Positions 3,533 through 43,814 of a stretch of DNA of 64,000 bases are shown one piece after another. The notes below the pieces were generated by a model, which searched no databases, was not told the origin of the DNA, and saw nothing but the letters and a program-made list of their open reading frames with translations. Numbering within the stretch: the first letter of the stretch is position 1; every line of letters begins with the position of its first letter. The position numbers and the translations under genes are program-made. Source of the DNA: Humisphaera borealis (GTDB taxonomy: Bacteria > Planctomycetota > Phycisphaerae > Tepidisphaerales > Tepidisphaeraceae); assembly GCF_015169395.1 (NCBI RefSeq), contig NZ_CP063458.1, positions 1,364,001-1,428,000 of the forward strand, given 5' to 3'.

Positions 3533-4942
<1,410 letters not shown>

Positions 4943-4952
4943 ATGAATGATT

Positions 4953-5050
4953 GTAGGGTCCGCCTTGGCGGACGCGTTGTTCGAGGCCAGTCGTTCGGGG
5001 CCAGTCATGAATTGTGCGTGATGCGTCGCGTCCGCCAAGGCGGACCCTAC
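4953..5050. repeat. Long palindromic element ending GTAGGGT...ACCCTAC
   Basis: A perfect 24-bp inverted repeat (4953-4976 with 5027-5050), beginning GTAGGGTCCGCCTTGGCGG, encloses a 50-base spacer. Each arm itself contains the smaller palindrome TCCGCCTTGGCGGA. The element fills almost the whole gap between the MBL-fold gene and asnS, both on the minus strand, and must be transcribed with them unless a promoter lies inside it. Its GTAGGGT/ACCCTAC ends match those of the element at 7404-7553. Confidence 0.8.
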
Positions 5051-5056
5051 ATAGAG

Positions 5057-6091
5057 CTACTTCGTGTCGTACTTCTGCTCGTGCTTCGTCGCCGGCACGG
5101 TCAGGGTGTACGCCTTGGCGTCCGGCGCGACGGCGCATTTGATGTAGTTTCCATCACATTCCTTCTTCGGGTTGGCGATGAACTCGTCCGGCACGTTGTT
5201 CTTCTCTTCGCCTTTGCGTTCGTTCCGGTGCAGCTGATAGATCCCGACGATCGAGTCGGTTGTTCGGACGGTCTGCACCATCTCAGGCATGCACCCCTTG
5301 GTCGACCCGTTGGTGATCACCACCACCGTCGGCGCGACGGATTTGATCACCACCGGGTTATTGCTGACATCCAAGCCGTGGTGCGTCGACTGATAGACAT
5401 CGACCTGCCCCAGGATGTTGGCAGGCACGGCGAGCTTCTCTTCAATGTTCCACGTCAGGTCGCCGCCGACAAACATCGACCAGTCGCCGAAGCGGATGAG
5501 CGAAGCGATGCTATTGGCGTTGTCGGAAAAATCGTCGGGCTTGCGGCGGGGGTTCTCGAAGTTAGTCGTCTTGGCGTCGGCCGGGGCCTTCATGACCTCC
5601 TTGCGGGCGGCGACGCAGGTCAGGCTGACCTTCGGGCCGGCGTCGAGATTCTTGAGCGGCAGTGTGTCGCCGGGGTTCAGGACGACCCGCTTATCGGCCT
5701 TGAACGCCAGGTACTCGGCCGAGGGGCGTTCGCGGCCGCCGGGGAACTCGCCGTTGTCGTAAACGGTGCCGACGGGGATCTGCGCGGCAACTTCGGCGAT
5801 CCCGCCGAAGTGGTCGCGGTGGTTGTGAGTCAGGATGAAGAAGTCGATCCTGGTCAGCCCGGCGACCTCTTTGGCGACTTTCACGATGCGGGCCGAGTCG
5901 CGCGGCGGCTTGCCGGCATCGGCGGGATTCCCGGAGTCGATCAGGATCGACTCCCCCGCCGGCGTAACGATCAGCGTGCCGCCGCCGCCTTCGACGTCGA
6001 TCCAATAGACATCCAGTTTTTTATCGGCCGCCCCGCCCAGGACCGATGCAGCCGGTATCAATGCCAGCAGAGCCGTCAGGATGCGTCGCAT
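5057..6091 (-). CDS. Secreted metallo-beta-lactamase-fold hydrolase
   Basis: A 344-aa protein with a signal peptide (MRRILTALLALIPAASVLGGA). The metal-binding motif THNHRDHFGG (His89, His91, Asp93, His94) and the preceding ILIDSGNP strand identify the MBL fold, and the general layout resembles the ComEC/Rec2-type competence hydrolase domain. Later His/Asp residues (FVGGDLTW, STHHGLDVSN) would complete the binuclear site. It has no membrane helices beyond the signal peptide, so it is not a full ComEC. ATG at 6091 has GGAGGAG just upstream. A periplasmic nuclease or phosphodiesterase-like activity is possible but unproven. Confidence 0.8.
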   Translation of the reverse strand: MRRILTALLALIPAASVLGGAADKKLDVYWIDVEGGGGTLIVTPAGESILIDSGNPADAGKPPRDSARIVKVAKEVAGLTRIDFFILTHNHRDHFGGIAEVAAQIPVGTVYDNGEFPGGRERPSAEYLAFKADKRVVLNPGDTLPLKNLDAGPKVSLTCVAARKEVMKAPADAKTTNFENPRRKPDDFSDNANSIASLIRFGDWSMFVGGDLTWNIEEKLAVPANILGQVDVYQSTHHGLDVSNNPVVIKSVAPTVVVITNGSTKGCMPEMVQTVRTTDSIVGIYQLHRNERKGEEKNNVPDEFIANPKKECDGNYIKCAVAPDAKAYTLTVPATKHEQKYDTK

Positions 6092-34752: not shown

Positions 34753-37700
34753 ATGGGCCTAGACCCCCGCTTTCTCACGTCCAACGGGCGTGAAGTCTTC
34801 ACCGGAAACGAACTTCTCATCAAAGGCGGCCTGGAGGTTGAAGGTGGTGTCCACCTTTACACCGGCTATCCCGGCTCTCCCGTAGCCGGATTCTTTGACG
34901 TCCTCGGTGACATCCAGGACATCCTTAAGAAACAGGGTATCCGCGCCTTTCAGGCCAACAACGAAGCGCTTGCGGCCGCCGCGCTGAACGGATCGCAGAT
35001 GCTTCCCGTCCGCGGGTTGATCGCGATGAAGTCGGTTGGCGTTCATGTGGCAGCGGACGCGCTCGCCCTGGGAAACCTCGCCGGTGCCCACCCGCAAGGC
35101 GGGGCCGTCGTGATCTCCGGAGAGGATCCCTGGTGCGACAGCACCCAGGTACCCGCAGACAGCCGATTTCTCTTCGAACACCTGCGCATGCCGGTCGTCG
35201 AGCCGGGGACCATTCAGGAAGTCAAAGACTGGATCGACGTCTCGTTCAAGCTCAGCCAGGCTGCGGGCATGTACATCGGGTACATCGTCACGACGGCCCA
35301 GGCCGACGGCGGCGGAAGCGTCTATTGCAAGCCCAACGTCTTCCCCGAATTGTCCCAGAAACATCGCATCGAAATGGAAACGGCGAAGGTCGACCTCGGC
35401 CGCGTCCTGCTTCCGCCCCGGACTTGGCAACGCGAGTTGCTGACTCCCGAGCGATTTGCCTCAACGATTGCCGCGGCGCGCAAGCTTGGCGTGAACAGGA
35501 TCATCCCCGCGACCAAGTCCGACAATCCTGAATCCTCGAAGCCCTCCTCTCCACTCGGCTTCATCGTCACCGGCATGGGCGGGCCGTACCTGCAGCATGT
35601 GCTGACCGATCTGGGCCTCTCGGGTCAGTTCCCCATCCTGCAGATGGGCCTGAGCTACCCTGCCGACGTTGGGCTGGTCCAGGAGTTTTCAAAGCTCTGC
35701 ACGACAATGATTGTGATTGAGGAACGCCGAAGCTTCCTCGAGAAGAACATCCGCGACTCGGCGTTCCGCGATCTGCCGGCCGAAGAGGCGATCGAGCTGA
35801 CGAGCAGGATGTTCGGGAAGAAGTTCCCGACGGCCAAGGGAACCGAAGCCAACGGCATTCCCGAAGTGCGCGGGCTCAGCGTATCGCTGCTCGCTCAGAA
35901 GCTCATTCCGTTGATCAAGTCGTTTAAGGAGATCCCCGAGCACCTGCGCAACGGCCGACTGACGGCCGAACTGGAGCGCATTCGCAAGGCGAGCAAGCCG
36001 AAGCTGCAGGTGGTCAGCGATCGCCTGATCGCCCGTACGCCAACGTTCTGCCCCGGCTGTCCGCACCGCGACAGCTCGGCGACACTGCTTCAGCTTCGCG
36101 AAGACCTCAAGAGCGCCGAGTACATGCAGAAGGTTCACGGCAAGCCGCCGGTGGACCTGGTCGCCCACGGCGACACCGGTTGCTACACGATGCTGATGTT
36201 TGCGCCGACCGAACAACTCATGCACAACTACAGTGGCATGGGACTGGGCGCCGGAACGGGCAGCGGTGTCGATTCGTTCATCACGAACAAGCAGCTTGTG
36301 TTCATGGGAGACGGCACTTTCTTCCATTCCGGGCAGGTTGCCATCTCCAACGCGGTCAAAGCCGGCCAGGACATTACGTTTATCATCCTGGAGAACGGCA
36401 CGACCGCGATGACCGGGCACCAGGAGCACCCCGGTACCGAGATCGATCTGCTCGGCAACGAGTCCTACATCCAGGACATCGAATCGATCTGCCGGGCGAT
36501 GAAGGGCACCAGCCCGCTGACGGTCACCAAGTTGCGACCCGACAATCGCAGCGACTACCGCCAGGCGCTTGAGAAAACGATTCTCGCCGACGGCGTCAAA
36601 GTCATCATCGCCGACAAGGAATGCGGCATCACGCACCAGCGCACGGTACTGAAGAACGAGCGAAAGGCCGTCAAAGAGACCGGCTTCCTGCCGACCAAGA
36701 CACACATGAACGTCACCCCGGAAGTGTGCGAACACTGCCTGGAGTGCACCAAGCAGACGGCCTGCCCGGGGCTGACGCTGGTGAACACCGACTACGGCCG
36801 TAAGGTCGATACAGACCTGACCTGGTGCGTGAACGACGGCGCGTGCGAGCGCGTCCGGGTGAACAACAGCTACGGCCGCGATCACAAGCCGTGCCCGAGC
36901 TTCGAGCAGATCACGGTCGTCCGATCGAAGCGCAAGCGATACAAGCTCCCGAACATGGAGCTGAGCAAGCTCCCGGACCCCGAACAACTGCACAAACTGA
37001 CCAACCCCGGCGACGCCTGGCGGGCGCACCTGTCCGGTGTCGGCGGGATGGGTATCGGCGTAGTGAACGCCATCCTCGTCCGCGCCGGTCACAAGGAAGG
37101 CTACAACGTCCTCTTCCAGGACAAAAAAGGGCTGGCGATCCGCAACGGCGGTGTGTACTCGCAGATTTCATTCATCCGCGAAGCGGACGAGGAGCGCGAA
37201 GCTGGGAGCGGGAAGCTGGAAGGAAAGCCGGGCACTCAGCACTCAGCGCCTACTACACCCACTGGCACCACCGGCTCCATTCCCTTCGGCAAGGCAGACC
37301 TGCTTCTGGGCGTGGACATCCTCGAAGCCGCCCGGGCGATCGATCCTCGGGAACAGTTCCGTATCGCGTCGATCGACAAGACGTCGGCGGTTCTCAACCT
37401 GCACAAGCAGCCGACCGTCTACACCCTTCTGGGCAAAGAAGACTTCGATCCCGAGCACATGAAGCAGGAGATCGCCGATCACTGTCTTCCCGGCCAGGTG
37501 TATGCCCGCAACCTTTCCGAGATCTGCGAGCAGCGGCTGGGGTCGAAGCTTTACGTCAATATCATGATGCTGGGCGTGGCTTATCAGCTCGGGCTGATTC
37601 CTGTCAGCTTCCACAGCATTGCCTGGGCGATCAAGGATTCGATTCGCCGGGAGTTCCGTAAGAATCTCAAGGCGTTCAACATCGGCCGGCGGTTGGCCCT

Positions 37701-38541
37701 CGACGGCCGGGCCCTGCCGAGCCGTCCGGAGCCTGTAACCTGGCAGCAGGTGGTCACCAACAAGGGGCGCATTCTCCGCAAGACCAAGCGGTACAACGCC
37801 CAGTGGTGGGGAGAGACCTTTGAGAAGCTTGTCACGGACGCGGCGCTATCCATGCCGAACCTGCCCGATCAGGCCAAGTACGACCTCGCGGTGAGAATCT
37901 ACGACCTGTTCCAGTACCAGAACGACGCTTTTGCGCTGCAATACATCGCGCTGATCCGGAAGATGTACCAGCGCGACGATGCCCGACGTGACTATGGCGT
38001 CACTGTCGCCGCAATCTGGAACCTCGCAAAAGTGATGCTGATCAAGGACGAAGTGTACGTCTCGTACCTGCTCACGCGGTACGAGAAGCACGTTCGCGAC
38101 GTCGCCAAGTACCATGTCGATGAAGCCAACGGCGACAAGCTCGTCTACCGCCATCACACCAGCCCCGAGTTCAACCTCGGCCCCTGGCGTATTCGGCTGA
38201 AGCTGACGACGCGGGATTGGCAGCTCAAGCTCGTCCGCCATATGAAGTGGTGGCGGAAACTACCAGGGTGGCATAAGCGTGAGGTCGCGTTCCGCGACTG
38301 GTACATCGCTCTGCTCGATCGCGTGGCATTGGGTTCTCCGGCAGAATACGAGCGGGCCTTGAAGGTACTGAAGTCGCCTGAGGAAGTGACTGGCTACCGC
38401 GAAGTCCGTTATCCGAAGCAGGATAAGGCGCGGGAGTGGGTGGAAGCAGAGATGTCGCGTCCGCTGCCTGTGCATCGCCCCGAGTTGCACCTGAACCGCG
38501 ACGTGCTGGCGACGGCGGCGGCCGAACGCGTCGAAGTCTAA
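34753..38541 (+). CDS. Fused indolepyruvate:ferredoxin oxidoreductase (IorA-IorB type)
   Basis: A 1262-aa cytoplasmic enzyme combining both subunits. The N-terminal pyrimidine-binding domain has YTGYPGSPVAGFFDVL and NNEALAAAALNGSQM; the TPP domain has FCPGCPHRDSS, HGDTGCYTML and FMGDGTFFHSGQVAISNAV. Fe-S ligands are C659, C662, C665, C671, and a second motif C692-x2-D695-x2-C698 with CPS at 714. From about 755 comes the gamma/IorB domain (LSGVGGMGIGVVNAIL, QDKKGLAIRNGGVYSQI), then a C-terminal DUF6537-like region. It oxidatively decarboxylates aryl or other 2-oxo acids to acyl-CoA, reducing ferredoxin. At residues about 814-841 a Gly/Ser/Thr-rich segment is encoded by internally repetitive DNA (see findings). 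A hairpin terminator follows. Confidence 0.92.
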   Translation: MGLDPRFLTSNGREVFTGNELLIKGGLEVEGGVHLYTGYPGSPVAGFFDVLGDIQDILKKQGIRAFQANNEALAAAALNGSQMLPVRGLIAMKSVGVHVAADALALGNLAGAHPQGGAVVISGEDPWCDSTQVPADSRFLFEHLRMPVVEPGTIQEVKDWIDVSFKLSQAAGMYIGYIVTTAQADGGGSVYCKPNVFPELSQKHRIEMETAKVDLGRVLLPPRTWQRELLTPERFASTIAAARKLGVNRIIPATKSDNPESSKPSSPLGFIVTGMGGPYLQHVLTDLGLSGQFPILQMGLSYPADVGLVQEFSKLCTTMIVIEERRSFLEKNIRDSAFRDLPAEEAIELTSRMFGKKFPTAKGTEANGIPEVRGLSVSLLAQKLIPLIKSFKEIPEHLRNGRLTAELERIRKASKPKLQVVSDRLIARTPTFCPGCPHRDSSATLLQLREDLKSAEYMQKVHGKPPVDLVAHGDTGCYTMLMFAPTEQLMHNYSGMGLGAGTGSGVDSFITNKQLVFMGDGTFFHSGQVAISNAVKAGQDITFIILENGTTAMTGHQEHPGTEIDLLGNESYIQDIESICRAMKGTSPLTVTKLRPDNRSDYRQALEKTILADGVKVIIADKECGITHQRTVLKNERKAVKETGFLPTKTHMNVTPEVCEHCLECTKQTACPGLTLVNTDYGRKVDTDLTWCVNDGACERVRVNNSYGRDHKPCPSFEQITVVRSKRKRYKLPNMELSKLPDPEQLHKLTNPGDAWRAHLSGVGGMGIGVVNAILVRAGHKEGYNVLFQDKKGLAIRNGGVYSQISFIREADEEREAGSGKLEGKPGTQHSAPTTPTGTTGSIPFGKADLLLGVDILEAARAIDPREQFRIASIDKTSAVLNLHKQPTVYTLLGKEDFDPEHMKQEIADHCLPGQVYARNLSEICEQRLGSKLYVNIMMLGVAYQLGLIPVSFHSIAWAIKDSIRREFRKNLKAFNIGRRLALDGRALPSRPEPVTWQQVVTNKGRILRKTKRYNAQWWGETFEKLVTDAALSMPNLPDQAKYDLAVRIYDLFQYQNDAFALQYIALIRKMYQRDDARRDYGVTVAAIWNLAKVMLIKDEVYVSYLLTRYEKHVRDVAKYHVDEANGDKLVYRHHTSPEFNLGPWRIRLKLTTRDWQLKLVRHMKWWRKLPGWHKREVAFRDWYIALLDRVALGSPAEYERALKVLKSPEEVTGYREVRYPKQDKAREWVEAEMSRPLPVHRPELHLNRDVLATAAAERVEV

Positions 38542-40634: not shown

Positions 40635-43250
40635 ATGCCTCGCGATATTCCAGTCGGCAACGGACGAATGCTGGTTACTTTCGACGACAAGTACCAGATC
40701 CGCGACTTCTACTACCCCCACGTCGGGCAGGAGAACCATGCAGGCGGAAACCCGTTTCGCTTCGGCGTCCATACCGACGTCCCCGGCGAGGGCCGCAGCG
40801 CACTGTACTGGACCAGTTCGCCCGGCTGGCAGATCCGTCAGCGTTATCTTCGCGACACGCTCACCACCAGCGTCAGCCTGGAGCACCCCGAACTGCAGTT
40901 AGTGGTCTACTGCAACGACTGTGTCGACTTCCACCGAAACATCCTGGTCCGAAAGATCAAGATCAAGAACCTCGCGAACCATGGTCGCATGGTGAAAGTC
41001 TTCGCGAACCAGGACTTCAACATGTTCGGGGCGAAGATAGGCGATACGGCCTACTACGATCCCGATCTGCGGAGCATGGTCCACTACCGGGCCAACCGCT
41101 ACGTGTTGGTGACCTTCTTCGGGTCGGCGCCGGAGGGATCTTCGGCCGACACGATTGGTGCTCAAGGCATCGACGAATACGCCACCGGCACCGCCGGCTT
41201 CCATGGTGCCGAAGGCACCTGGCGTGACGCGGAAGACGGCCACCTTCAGGGGAACCCGATCGCACAGGGCGCGGTCGACTCGACCTGCGCCTGCCATGTC
41301 GCCGTCCCGCCCCTAGGCGAGAAGGTCATCTACATGGCAATGATCGCCGGGCTAAGTCGCGGCGAACTTGTGGACATGCACTCTTGGCTGCTGCGGATGG
41401 ATCCCCAGGGCGTCATCGACCGAACCAGTGGCTACTGGCGGCTGTGGGTCGGCGGAACGAACATCAACTTCGGTAACCTGCCGCCCAAGGTCGTCGAGTC
41501 CTTCAAGCGGTCGCTCCTGGTTCTGCGAACCCAGATCGACAACGGCGGTGCAATCATCGCCGCCAACGATTCGGACATCATGCAGTTCGCTCGGGACACC
41601 TACTCGTACATGTGGCCGCGCGACGGCGCTCTCGTCGCCAATGCCCTGGACCTGGCCGGCTTCTCGGACATCGCGCGCTCGTTCTACACCTTCTGCGCCA
41701 AGGTCATCACCGAAGACGGCTACTTCCTTCACAAGTACAACCCCGACGGCTCACCCGCTTCGTCCTGGCACCCGTGGGTGCTTAAAGGCAACCGCGTACT
41801 GCCGATCCAGGAAGACGAGACTGCGCTGGTGGTCTGGGCCCTTTGGCGGCACTACTTCCGTTACCGCGACATCGAGTTTATCCGCCCGCTCTGGGTCGAT
41901 GTCGTTCAGAAGGCCGCCGACTTCATGGTGCGGTACCGCGACCCGCGAACCGGACTGCCCCTGCCCAGCTACGACTTGTGGGAAGAACGCTGGGGCGTCC
42001 ACGCGTTTACCGTCGCCACTGTGTACGGCGGATTGAAAGCCGCGCACAACTTCGCCGTCGCATTTGGCGACCGCGAGCGTGCCGCCAACTACGCCAAGGC
42101 TGCCGAAGAAATGAAGATCGGCGCCGCCAAGTACCTTTTCAGCCCCAAGCTCAATCGCTTCGTCCGTCGACTGGTCCCCAAGGACATGCAGGCACCGCCG
42201 GACAGCCCGACCTATCACGAAGATCAGCCTTTGGCATATGAGCCTTCGATCGACGAGGTCTACGAGGTGGACGAGACCGTCGATGCCTCGCTCTACGCGA
42301 TCTACAAGTTCCACTTGTTTGACGCCGACGACCCCCGCGTCGTCAGCACGATGCGCGCGGTCGAGTCCAAGCTGTGGGTGAAGACCCGCGTCGGCGGCAT
42401 CGCCCGCTACGAGAACGACTACTACCACCGCATCAGCGACGACATCGCGAGCGTGCCGGGCAATCCCTGGTTCATTTGCACGCTCTGGCTCGCCGACTAC
42501 CACATTTCCCGAGCCAAGAACACTGCCGACTTGAAGATGGCGATCCCCATCCTGGAATGGGCCGCCGGCCATGCCCTGGAATCCGGCGTGCTCGCCGAGC
42601 AGGTGCATCCGTACACGAATGAGCCCTTGAGTGTCGCCCCGCTGACATGGAGCCATGCGACGGTGGTCGCGACGGTCATCAAGTACCTCGAGGCCCTCGA
42701 GCAGGCTCAACTCTGCGACACTTGCCAGCATCCGATGTTCCGGCTCCGGAAACGCGGCAGCGTCGAAGTGCGCAACCAGGCCGTCTTCAACCGTCTGGAC
42801 GCGGACTTCGAGTCCGAAGACGACAGTTCACTTGAAATGGCCAGCCCGTCGGGGCGGGTGGTGGTGCCCGATCCGAAGACCGGCAAGTCGTTGCGGCTGA
42901 CCCTCTCGATCGACACCCGTGATTGCATCGGCTGCGACGTGTGCGTGGCGCATTGCGACAAGGGCGTACTGCGGATGGTCGAGCAGAAGGCGCTGGTTGA
43001 TCTGCGGAACCTGAACCAGTGCGACATGGATGGCGCCTGCGTGGACGTCTGCCCGACGAAGGTGGTCGCACTGAGCGTAACGCCCGAGGATGGGATCTCC
43101 TTGAGCGATGCGGAAACCGCCAGCCTTAACGACGGGCCCGTCCTGACGCCGCTGGATGAATTGTTCGATGGAACCAGCCACGGGAAGACGCCGAGCCCAT
43201 CCGAGGCAAAAAAGGGCAACGGGCGAAAACTGCCGATCGTGGGCCGATAA
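40635..43250 (+). CDS. GH15 glucoamylase-like enzyme fused to a C-terminal 2[4Fe-4S]-type ferredoxin domain
   Basis: A single uninterrupted 871-codon frame. Residues about 1-270 form the beta-sandwich domain usual in bacterial GH15 enzymes (VGNGRMLVTFDDKYQIRDFYYPHVGQENH). The (alpha/alpha)6 domain (about 285-705) has TYSYMWPRDGALVANALDLAG, the acid motif YDLWEERWGVHAFT (Glu450) and the base in AEQVHPYTNEPLSVAPLTWSHA (Glu655). GH15 enzymes hydrolyse or phosphorolyse alpha-glucosides and trehalose-type sugars. A CDTC pair follows, then a linker, then C764-x2-C767-x2-C770-x3-C774 and C796-x2-D799-x2-C802-x3-C806-P, a ferredoxin fold with Asp replacing one Cys. No signal peptide, so cytoplasmic. 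The link to electron transfer is inferred. Confidence 0.9.
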   Translation: MPRDIPVGNGRMLVTFDDKYQIRDFYYPHVGQENHAGGNPFRFGVHTDVPGEGRSALYWTSSPGWQIRQRYLRDTLTTSVSLEHPELQLVVYCNDCVDFHRNILVRKIKIKNLANHGRMVKVFANQDFNMFGAKIGDTAYYDPDLRSMVHYRANRYVLVTFFGSAPEGSSADTIGAQGIDEYATGTAGFHGAEGTWRDAEDGHLQGNPIAQGAVDSTCACHVAVPPLGEKVIYMAMIAGLSRGELVDMHSWLLRMDPQGVIDRTSGYWRLWVGGTNINFGNLPPKVVESFKRSLLVLRTQIDNGGAIIAANDSDIMQFARDTYSYMWPRDGALVANALDLAGFSDIARSFYTFCAKVITEDGYFLHKYNPDGSPASSWHPWVLKGNRVLPIQEDETALVVWALWRHYFRYRDIEFIRPLWVDVVQKAADFMVRYRDPRTGLPLPSYDLWEERWGVHAFTVATVYGGLKAAHNFAVAFGDRERAANYAKAAEEMKIGAAKYLFSPKLNRFVRRLVPKDMQAPPDSPTYHEDQPLAYEPSIDEVYEVDETVDASLYAIYKFHLFDADDPRVVSTMRAVESKLWVKTRVGGIARYENDYYHRISDDIASVPGNPWFICTLWLADYHISRAKNTADLKMAIPILEWAAGHALESGVLAEQVHPYTNEPLSVAPLTWSHATVVATVIKYLEALEQAQLCDTCQHPMFRLRKRGSVEVRNQAVFNRLDADFESEDDSSLEMASPSGRVVVPDPKTGKSLRLTLSIDTRDCIGCDVCVAHCDKGVLRMVEQKALVDLRNLNQCDMDGACVDVCPTKVVALSVTPEDGISLSDAETASLNDGPVLTPLDELFDGTSHGKTPSPSEAKKGNGRKLPIVGR

Positions 43251-43385: not shown

Positions 43386-43814
43386 ATGAACTCGTCGAGA
43401 CTGAAGAGCGCCTTTCGGGCCGGCCTTGCAATGGTCGTAGCGGTCACCCTCGTCGCACCGGTATCAGCCCAGGAAAAGAAGAAAAAGGACAATCAGAGCG
43501 AGCAGGCCCAGAAAGCGATCCAGAAACAGAAGGACATCGCCAAGGGGTTGGCGGACAAGGCCGCCGGCGATCCGGCCGTGCTGCAGAAGCAACTCGATGA
43601 AGCCAAGGCCGCCCTTCAGGCCGAAAAGGATCGGCACACTGCTGAACTTGCCAAGCTGAACGGCGAGTTGAAGACGGCAACCGACGCCGGCCAGAACGGG
43701 AAGGTCAAGACGACCGAGAAGGCGATCGAGAAGGAAAACGATCAGTACAACAAGAAGATCGAGAAGCTGCAGAAGGATATAGACGCGGCGCAGGCGAAGG
43801 TCGACGGCAAATGA
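43386..43814 (+). CDS. Small secreted coiled-coil protein
   Basis: A 142-aa protein with GGAGG upstream of ATG 43386 and a clear signal peptide (RAGLAMVVAVTLVAPVSA, cleavage before QEKKKK). The mature part is Lys/Gln/Glu/Ala-rich with heptad spacing (LQKQLDEAKAALQAEKDRHTAELAKLNGEL; IEKENDQYNKKIEKLQKDIDAAQAKV) and should form a long coiled coil. It could be a periplasmic structural or chaperone-like protein. No family is recognised. A hairpin terminator follows. Confidence 0.75.
   Translation: MNSSRLKSAFRAGLAMVVAVTLVAPVSAQEKKKKDNQSEQAQKAIQKQKDIAKGLADKAAGDPAVLQKQLDEAKAALQAEKDRHTAELAKLNGELKTATDAGQNGKVKTTEKAIEKENDQYNKKIEKLQKDIDAAQAKVDGK

Follow-up and report, generated by a model that had tools for sequence, protein, structure and literature searches.

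A GH15 hydrolase with a built-in ferredoxin

The window, a 64,000-nucleotide stretch of the genome of the soil planctomycete Humisphaera borealis, carries a gene whose product joins a glucoamylase-type hydrolase of family GH15 to a ferredoxin domain. The gene and the features of its hydrolase part, in window coordinates, are as follows.

40635..43250, + strand: GH15-ferredoxin fusion gene, 871 aa, with full-length relatives
40635..42704, + strand: GH15 part, residues 1-690, an N-terminal beta-sandwich and a helical catalytic domain of the glucoamylase type (PF00723, TIGR01577, 1lf6)
41982..41987, + strand: E450/E451 (LWEER), candidate GH15 general acid, invariant in a 28-row alignment and matching WEE of 1lf6
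42597..42599, + strand: E655 (LAEQ), candidate GH15 general base, invariant in the same alignment and matching SEQV of 1lf6
42714..42725, + strand: C694-x2-C697, closing the GH15 part ahead of a conserved linker (alignment of relatives)

The source genome is a single contig of 7,189,892 bases. Fourteen relatives in other genomes of the window's family (f1, which we infer to be the Tepidisphaeraceae) align to residues 1-816 or further with 66-80% identity and, since they span both parts of the fusion, an assembly join is ruled out. AlphaFold2 modelled the whole protein with a mean pLDDT of 84.3 and a pTM of 0.86. The fold search, whose rows covered residues 1-705 with the ferredoxin part outside, aligned 593 positions of the predicted model of residues 1-688 with the bacterial glucoamylase 1lf6 (Z 41.2, r.m.s.d. 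3.1), and this score and the pTM of the model identify a glucoamylase fold with an N-terminal beta-sandwich. The GH15 profile PF00723 matched residues 296-679 with 98 bits against a gathering cut-off of 22 (E 7.8e-28); the oligosaccharide amylase profile TIGR01577 matched residues 12-685 (E 2e-101) with 340.5 bits, below its equivalog cut-off of 820.7. The glutamates expected of a GH15 catalytic acid and base are both present and invariant, and we presume from GH15 enzymes in general that they play these roles, with either E450 or E451 as the acid.

No obvious signal peptide was seen on the GH15 part, which begins MPRDIPVGNG. The protein is most likely a cytosolic GH15 glucan hydrolase with a built-in ferredoxin, and its substrate is probably glycogen or malto-oligosaccharides. 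The CxxC at C694 and C697, absent from two relatives (L016 and L017), resembles half a zinc ribbon and is shared with many GH15 relatives from other phyla that have no ferredoxin. Directly downstream of the fusion gene (43386-43814, + strand) lies a reading frame for a lysine- and glutamate-rich protein of 142 aa with, by eye, a likely signal peptide; a Pfam search returned no match for it above a family cut-off. Our literature search, which covered open-licence papers, found no report of a GH15 enzyme or glucoamylase fused to a ferredoxin, and the available portion of PMC11046441 does not mention one.

The corner residue of cluster II

The C-terminal part of the protein contains the following features.

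42906..43082, + strand: dicluster ferredoxin core, residues 758-816 (PF13237 at 758-807; pLDDT about 90 in the full-length model)
42924..42956, + strand: motif I, C764-x2-C767-x2-C770-x3-C774, codons starting at 42924, 42933, 42942 and 42954
43020..43052, + strand: motif II, C796-x2-D799-x2-C802-x3-C806, then Pro, codons starting at 43020, 43029, 43038 and 43050
43029..43031, + strand: D799 (gat), replacing a ligating Cys; Asp or Asn in 15/15 readable f1 proteins, Cys in 6/6 proteins of the all-Cys group f11

The match to PF13237 (Fer4_10) scored 28.9 bits, above the cut-off of 25.5. The ferredoxin region was modelled with a pLDDT near 90 in the full-length protein, and the domain modelled alone had a mean of 61.9. 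The first-pass annotation had read motif I as a full CxxCxxCxxxC and motif II as the same motif with Asp at one position, and its coordinates and residue numbers are exact. We take the assignment of cysteines to clusters from the known dicluster fold: C764, C767, C770 and C806 would hold cluster I, and C774 would serve cluster II, which is thus predicted to be a three-Cys site of C774, C796 and C802. With seven cysteines and D799 in place of the eighth, the domain falls short of the eight ligands of a 2[4Fe-4S] ferredoxin, and its sequence has the 7Fe ([3Fe-4S][4Fe-4S]) layout of one four-Cys and one three-Cys site. Elsewhere in the same genome, Fer4_10-type matches with readable motifs have Cys at this corner, apart from one motif with Ala that presumably belongs to an SdhB-like protein. 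The other place in the genome with Asp here is an indolepyruvate oxidoreductase (IOR) in the window.

To judge whether D799 is particular to this genome, the first-pass annotation had proposed aligning homologues. A fused profile matched 19 of the 26 f1 genomes at E <= 1e-50; four of the 19 gave no readable corner, one because the protein has no ferredoxin (G017), one because of a frame stop near a contig end (G003) and two because of contig-end cuts or partial matches (G021, G023). Among the 15 readable f1 homologues, which span 13 genera, residue 799 is Asp in 12 and Asn in three (L007, L012 and L016); not included in this count are L015, whose frame stops near the end of a contig, and matches from G013, G021 and G023 that are truncated or partial. 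The position is thus conserved in kind, and an assembly error or a private mutation, the latter an outcome that would have undone the first-pass interpretation, is ruled out: every readable f1 homologue has Asp or Asn. Cys stands there in all six proteins of the related group f11, which we infer to belong to the FEN-1346 order of PMC11266412.

All seven cysteines (C764, C767, C770, C774, C796, C802 and C806), among them the three assigned to cluster II, do not vary among 21 aligned dicluster fusions. A GH15 tree with 112 rows, computed with a short search and SH-aLRT support only, places Asn at three separate positions and unites the Cys form in one clade with support 100; left out of this tree were 13 repeat loci, the L111-L130 repeats, rows lacking the PLTWSH motif, rows shorter than 550 residues and identical cores. 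With 15 of 15 proteins carrying Asp or Asn, the seven cysteines unchanged and Asn on three separate branches, the corner in f1 is under constraint, with Asp and Asn the residues allowed, rather than simply lost.

The same data bear on the idea that cluster II is decaying and that Asp or Asn marks relaxed selection toward a one-cluster state. Such a course would agree with the lack of cluster II in anammox versions and of the whole ferredoxin in L017 of f1 and in L063 and L152 of the anammox clade. However, the restriction to two residues across 13 genera, with C774, C796 and C802 unchanged, signifies constraint and not drift, and we regard decay as very improbable. The ferredoxin-less members do indicate that the domain is dispensable for the hydrolase. 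Of 579 confirmed relatives in a scan of genome contigs, the 80 best-matching ones include 20 with the ferredoxin, all titled as planctomycete records.

In Brocadiales-type (anammox) relatives the domain has a one-cluster form, CVGCGIC...CCP, with 23 distinct tails. These keep three motif I cysteines and the final Cys-Pro, which are the cysteines assigned to cluster I only. The predicted cluster I is therefore the constant part of the domain and cluster II the part that varies between lineages. We consider the fusion itself, with its three cluster layouts, a more interesting result than a sensor function for Asp799. In L063 (3736-5799) and L152 (532-2601) the protein stops soon after the shared linker, and these ends look as if the linker had been joined directly to the usual last residues, the domain being lost in frame. 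Anammox-type genomes such as G265, G353 and G405 have two GH15 copies each, one with a ferredoxin-length tail and one without.

Oxygen reductases and gene neighbourhoods

We compared the corner residue with the oxygen reductases of the same genomes. A COX1-family gene (PF00115) was found in 16 of the 17 f1 genomes tested, and the remaining one, G005, has a bd oxidase instead. Neither a haem-copper-type nor a bd oxidase was detected in the six f11 genomes, most of which are incomplete assemblies. All 15 genomes with Asp or Asn at the corner thus have a candidate oxygen reductase and all six with Cys have neither type detected, in counts that pool NO reductases with oxidases since PF00115 covers both. 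This agrees with excerpts of PMC11266412, in which FEN-1346 appears strictly fermentative and Tepidisphaerales facultatively anaerobic. The match is clean but is a single evolutionary contrast, f1 against f11. Anammox-type genomes (f65/f110) matched PF00115 in 10/10 and PF01654 in 6/6 tested, mostly weakly and, for PF01654, partially. Glycogen phosphorylase as an alternative route gave no clear pattern, with PF00343 matches in 26 of 33 genomes mixed over all groups.

The IOR gene of the window (34753-38541, + strand, 1262 aa, with a ferredoxin region reading CVNDGAC) lies two genes upstream of the fusion. It has the CxxDxxC Asp in 16/16 f1 genomes with a readable motif; f11 genomes gave only weak partial matches to IOR, in two of six. 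A conserved operon with it is ruled out, as IOR is present in 16 of the 17 f1 genomes searched and in none of the other clustered neighbourhoods. The nine f1 neighbourhoods that we clustered contain no conserved redox partner beside the fusion gene, and the only recurrent upstream neighbour is adenylosuccinate lyase (5/9, at about 1 to 4 kb), which we judged uninformative.

These neighbourhoods bear on the proposal that the ferredoxin, by electron transfer or docking, ties the hydrolase to an oxidoreductase, for example one oxidising sugars or 2-oxoacids, with D799 only tuning the potential. The domain is intact, with seven invariant cysteines, the PDB chains that match it best in sequence are of the polyferredoxin type (9sfi and 9sw6), and the IOR gene is close by in the window. 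That gene is, however, missing from the other clustered neighbourhoods, and glucan hydrolysis consumes no electrons; we hold this proposal to be unlikely. Because the hydrolase needs no electrons, the ferredoxin is most likely a regulatory or docking module.

A different neighbour recurs in the anammox clade. In 13 of its 23 distinct members, a histidine kinase with a Tll0287 domain (by Pfam on L049) starts -13 to +15 bases from the last codon of the fusion, as measured from the start of the tblastn match; in L049, with the fusion at 3618-5951, the two reading frames share ATGA. The kinase lies about 0.9-1.9 kb away in two further members, and eight have none in the flank searched (6 kb for two, 0.3-1.5 kb for the others). 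The kinases located at four of eight loci (L054, L059, L063 and L064) carry a CxxCH motif, and a rubrerythrin-like gene lies upstream of the fusion in seven of the 23. According to available sections of PMC12889525, a 2026 preprint, signalling-fused Tll0287 domains bind c-type haem and act as sensors of NO rather than oxygen. This arrangement argues that the hydrolase-ferredoxin operon of anammox bacteria has a function connected with redox state or NO. Since the ferredoxin-less L063 and L152 keep the kinase overlap, the kinase link is independent of the ferredoxin, and since anammox versions lack cluster II, their neighbourhood is uninformative on Asp799.

A proposed role and known systems

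We propose that cluster II is an air-stable three-Cys cluster with Asp or Asn at its corner, adopted with aerobic life, in a hydrolase coupled to redox state; for this explanation as a whole we estimate a probability of about 0.5. Cluster I would be a standard [4Fe-4S] site with four cysteines, present in all forms that carry a ferredoxin. At cluster II, C774, C796 and C802 would leave the fourth corner to a residue with an oxygen donor, Asp or Asn. As this three-Cys site is common to the Asp and Asn forms, we favour an air-stable [3Fe-4S] cluster as its most likely resting state, to which a fourth iron may be added reversibly where the corner is Asp. Judged from the sequences, these cluster types are likely to be correct. 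The change from Cys to Asp or Asn most likely accompanied aerobic life in Tepidisphaeraceae, and would have removed a labile corner and reset the potential while leaving the job of the domain unchanged; that it hardened the cluster against oxygen seems to us about an even bet. The job itself would most likely be to couple the activity or docking of the hydrolase to the redox state of the cell, a step that we put forward tentatively.

The explanation draws on the corner counts, the match with oxygen reductases, the CxxDxxC of the f1 IOR and the [3Fe-4S] precedents given below. Several points weigh against it: the oxygen link is a single contrast, PF00115 pools NO reductases with oxidases, most f11 assemblies are incomplete, the f1 neighbourhoods clustered show no conserved redox partner, and the hydrolase can do without the ferredoxin. 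Asp outnumbers Asn by 12 to 3, so Asp ligation could still matter in most members, and the classic Asp ferredoxin comes from an anaerobe, Pyrococcus furiosus, so Asp need not mean air.

More broadly, one could imagine an iron-sulfur-gated glucan hydrolase by which a fused ferredoxin controls the release of glucose from storage glucan in planctomycetes. Cluster I would be its constant redox- or NO-responsive element and cluster II would be retooled by lifestyle, with four cysteines in fermenters, Asp or Asn in aerobes and no cluster II in anammox bacteria, where translational coupling to the c-haem Tll0287/DUF3365 kinase would place carbon release and redox or NO sensing in one operon. As a complete scheme we find this speculative and on balance doubtful. 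A glucoamylase-type enzyme with a conserved ferredoxin remodelled alongside oxygen use would link the release of storage carbon directly to redox state. The natural all-Cys, Asp, Asn, one-cluster and ferredoxin-less versions also make the role of a non-Cys corner in dicluster ferredoxins testable inside one family.

The first-pass annotation had drawn a parallel with P. furiosus ferredoxin, in which Asp binds one iron and which, as described in the accessible text of PMC6237146, is [3Fe-4S] when isolated in air and [4Fe-4S] without air. The fusion shares CxxDxxC with it and is a candidate for the same conversion. There, however, the motif with Asp is the first one, CXXDXXC(X)nCP (same source), and the protein is free-standing, with a single cluster and an anaerobic host, whereas here the domain has two clusters and Asp sits in its second motif; the likeness holds through the pseudo-symmetry of the fold only, and the fusion is not a ferredoxin of the P. 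furiosus type.

A similar layout is found in the 7Fe zinc-ferredoxins of Sulfolobus and Thermoplasma, which come from aerobic hosts and combine a four-Cys site with a three-Cys site that has Asp at the free corner (PMC2946596, in the part available). Unlike the fusion, they have Asp in the first motif and no GH15 part. The fusion lacks both the first-motif Asp and the His-bearing N-terminal extension of zinc-ferredoxins: its Asp is in the second motif, and residues 730-763 contain no His for a zinc site. The same text describes Asp48 of the Sulfolobus protein (first motif Cys45/Asp48/Cys51/Cys93) as unbound beside [3Fe-4S] and held by Ser50. In the 15 f1 proteins, the equivalent residue 801 is Ala, Lys, Glu, Thr, Gln or Val and never Ser, and therefore iron binding may be less hindered for Asp799 than for Asp48.

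Mycobacterial and other CXX?XXC [3Fe-4S] ferredoxins resemble the fusion in tolerating Asn among their corner residues, but have a single cluster, with the corner in the first motif, and serve P450s (PMC6237146, as excerpted). In the same excerpts, all M. marinum ferredoxins examined with other corner residues are [3Fe-4S], the Asn-type Fdx4 takes up no fourth iron, and Fdx2 and Fdx4 withstand 40 min at 120 uM oxygen.

These precedents allow a judgement of the original proposal, that a labile fourth iron is ligated by Asp799 and that the cluster, converting between [3Fe-4S] and [4Fe-4S], acts as a sensor of oxygen or iron, which here would switch the hydrolase. The presence of Asp in 12 of the 15 f1 proteins, the behaviour of the P. 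furiosus protein, the lack of a Sulfolobus-type Ser hydrogen bond as such and the redox and gas-sensing neighbours of anammox relatives would all suit it. Against these stand Asn in the other three proteins, the placement of Asp in the second motif, the retention of the fusion in the all-Cys group and the anammox versions, which lie beside a sensor kinase and entirely lack cluster II; we consider the proposal unlikely. Asp may still be an iron ligand, freed by the absence of Ser at 801, but not an obligatory one, given Asn at three places on the tree, the unbound Sulfolobus Asp and the behaviour of Fdx4. Nor does Asp argue for a sensor over a plain electron carrier, as non-Cys corner residues are known from plain carriers. 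A sensor role for the ferredoxin as a whole is possible from its fusion to GH15 and, in anammox members only, from the adjoining haem-sensor kinase; for Asp itself it is possible but not favoured.

Among PDB entries, chain O of 9sfi (named Ferredoxin) has a second motif reading CDLDGAC, with Asp at the identical place in the alignment, but consists of several dicluster modules. The 1lf6-like GH15 glucoamylases and TIGR01577 amylases share the fold, length and catalytic glutamates of the fusion, but those aligned lack the ferredoxin part. A precedent for a redox-controlled glucan hydrolase is found in the thioredoxin-regulated plant amylases BAM1 and AMY3 (PMC12351283 and PMC6685290, both available in part); they use a disulfide switch and no iron-sulfur cluster, and the analogy with the fusion is one of function only.
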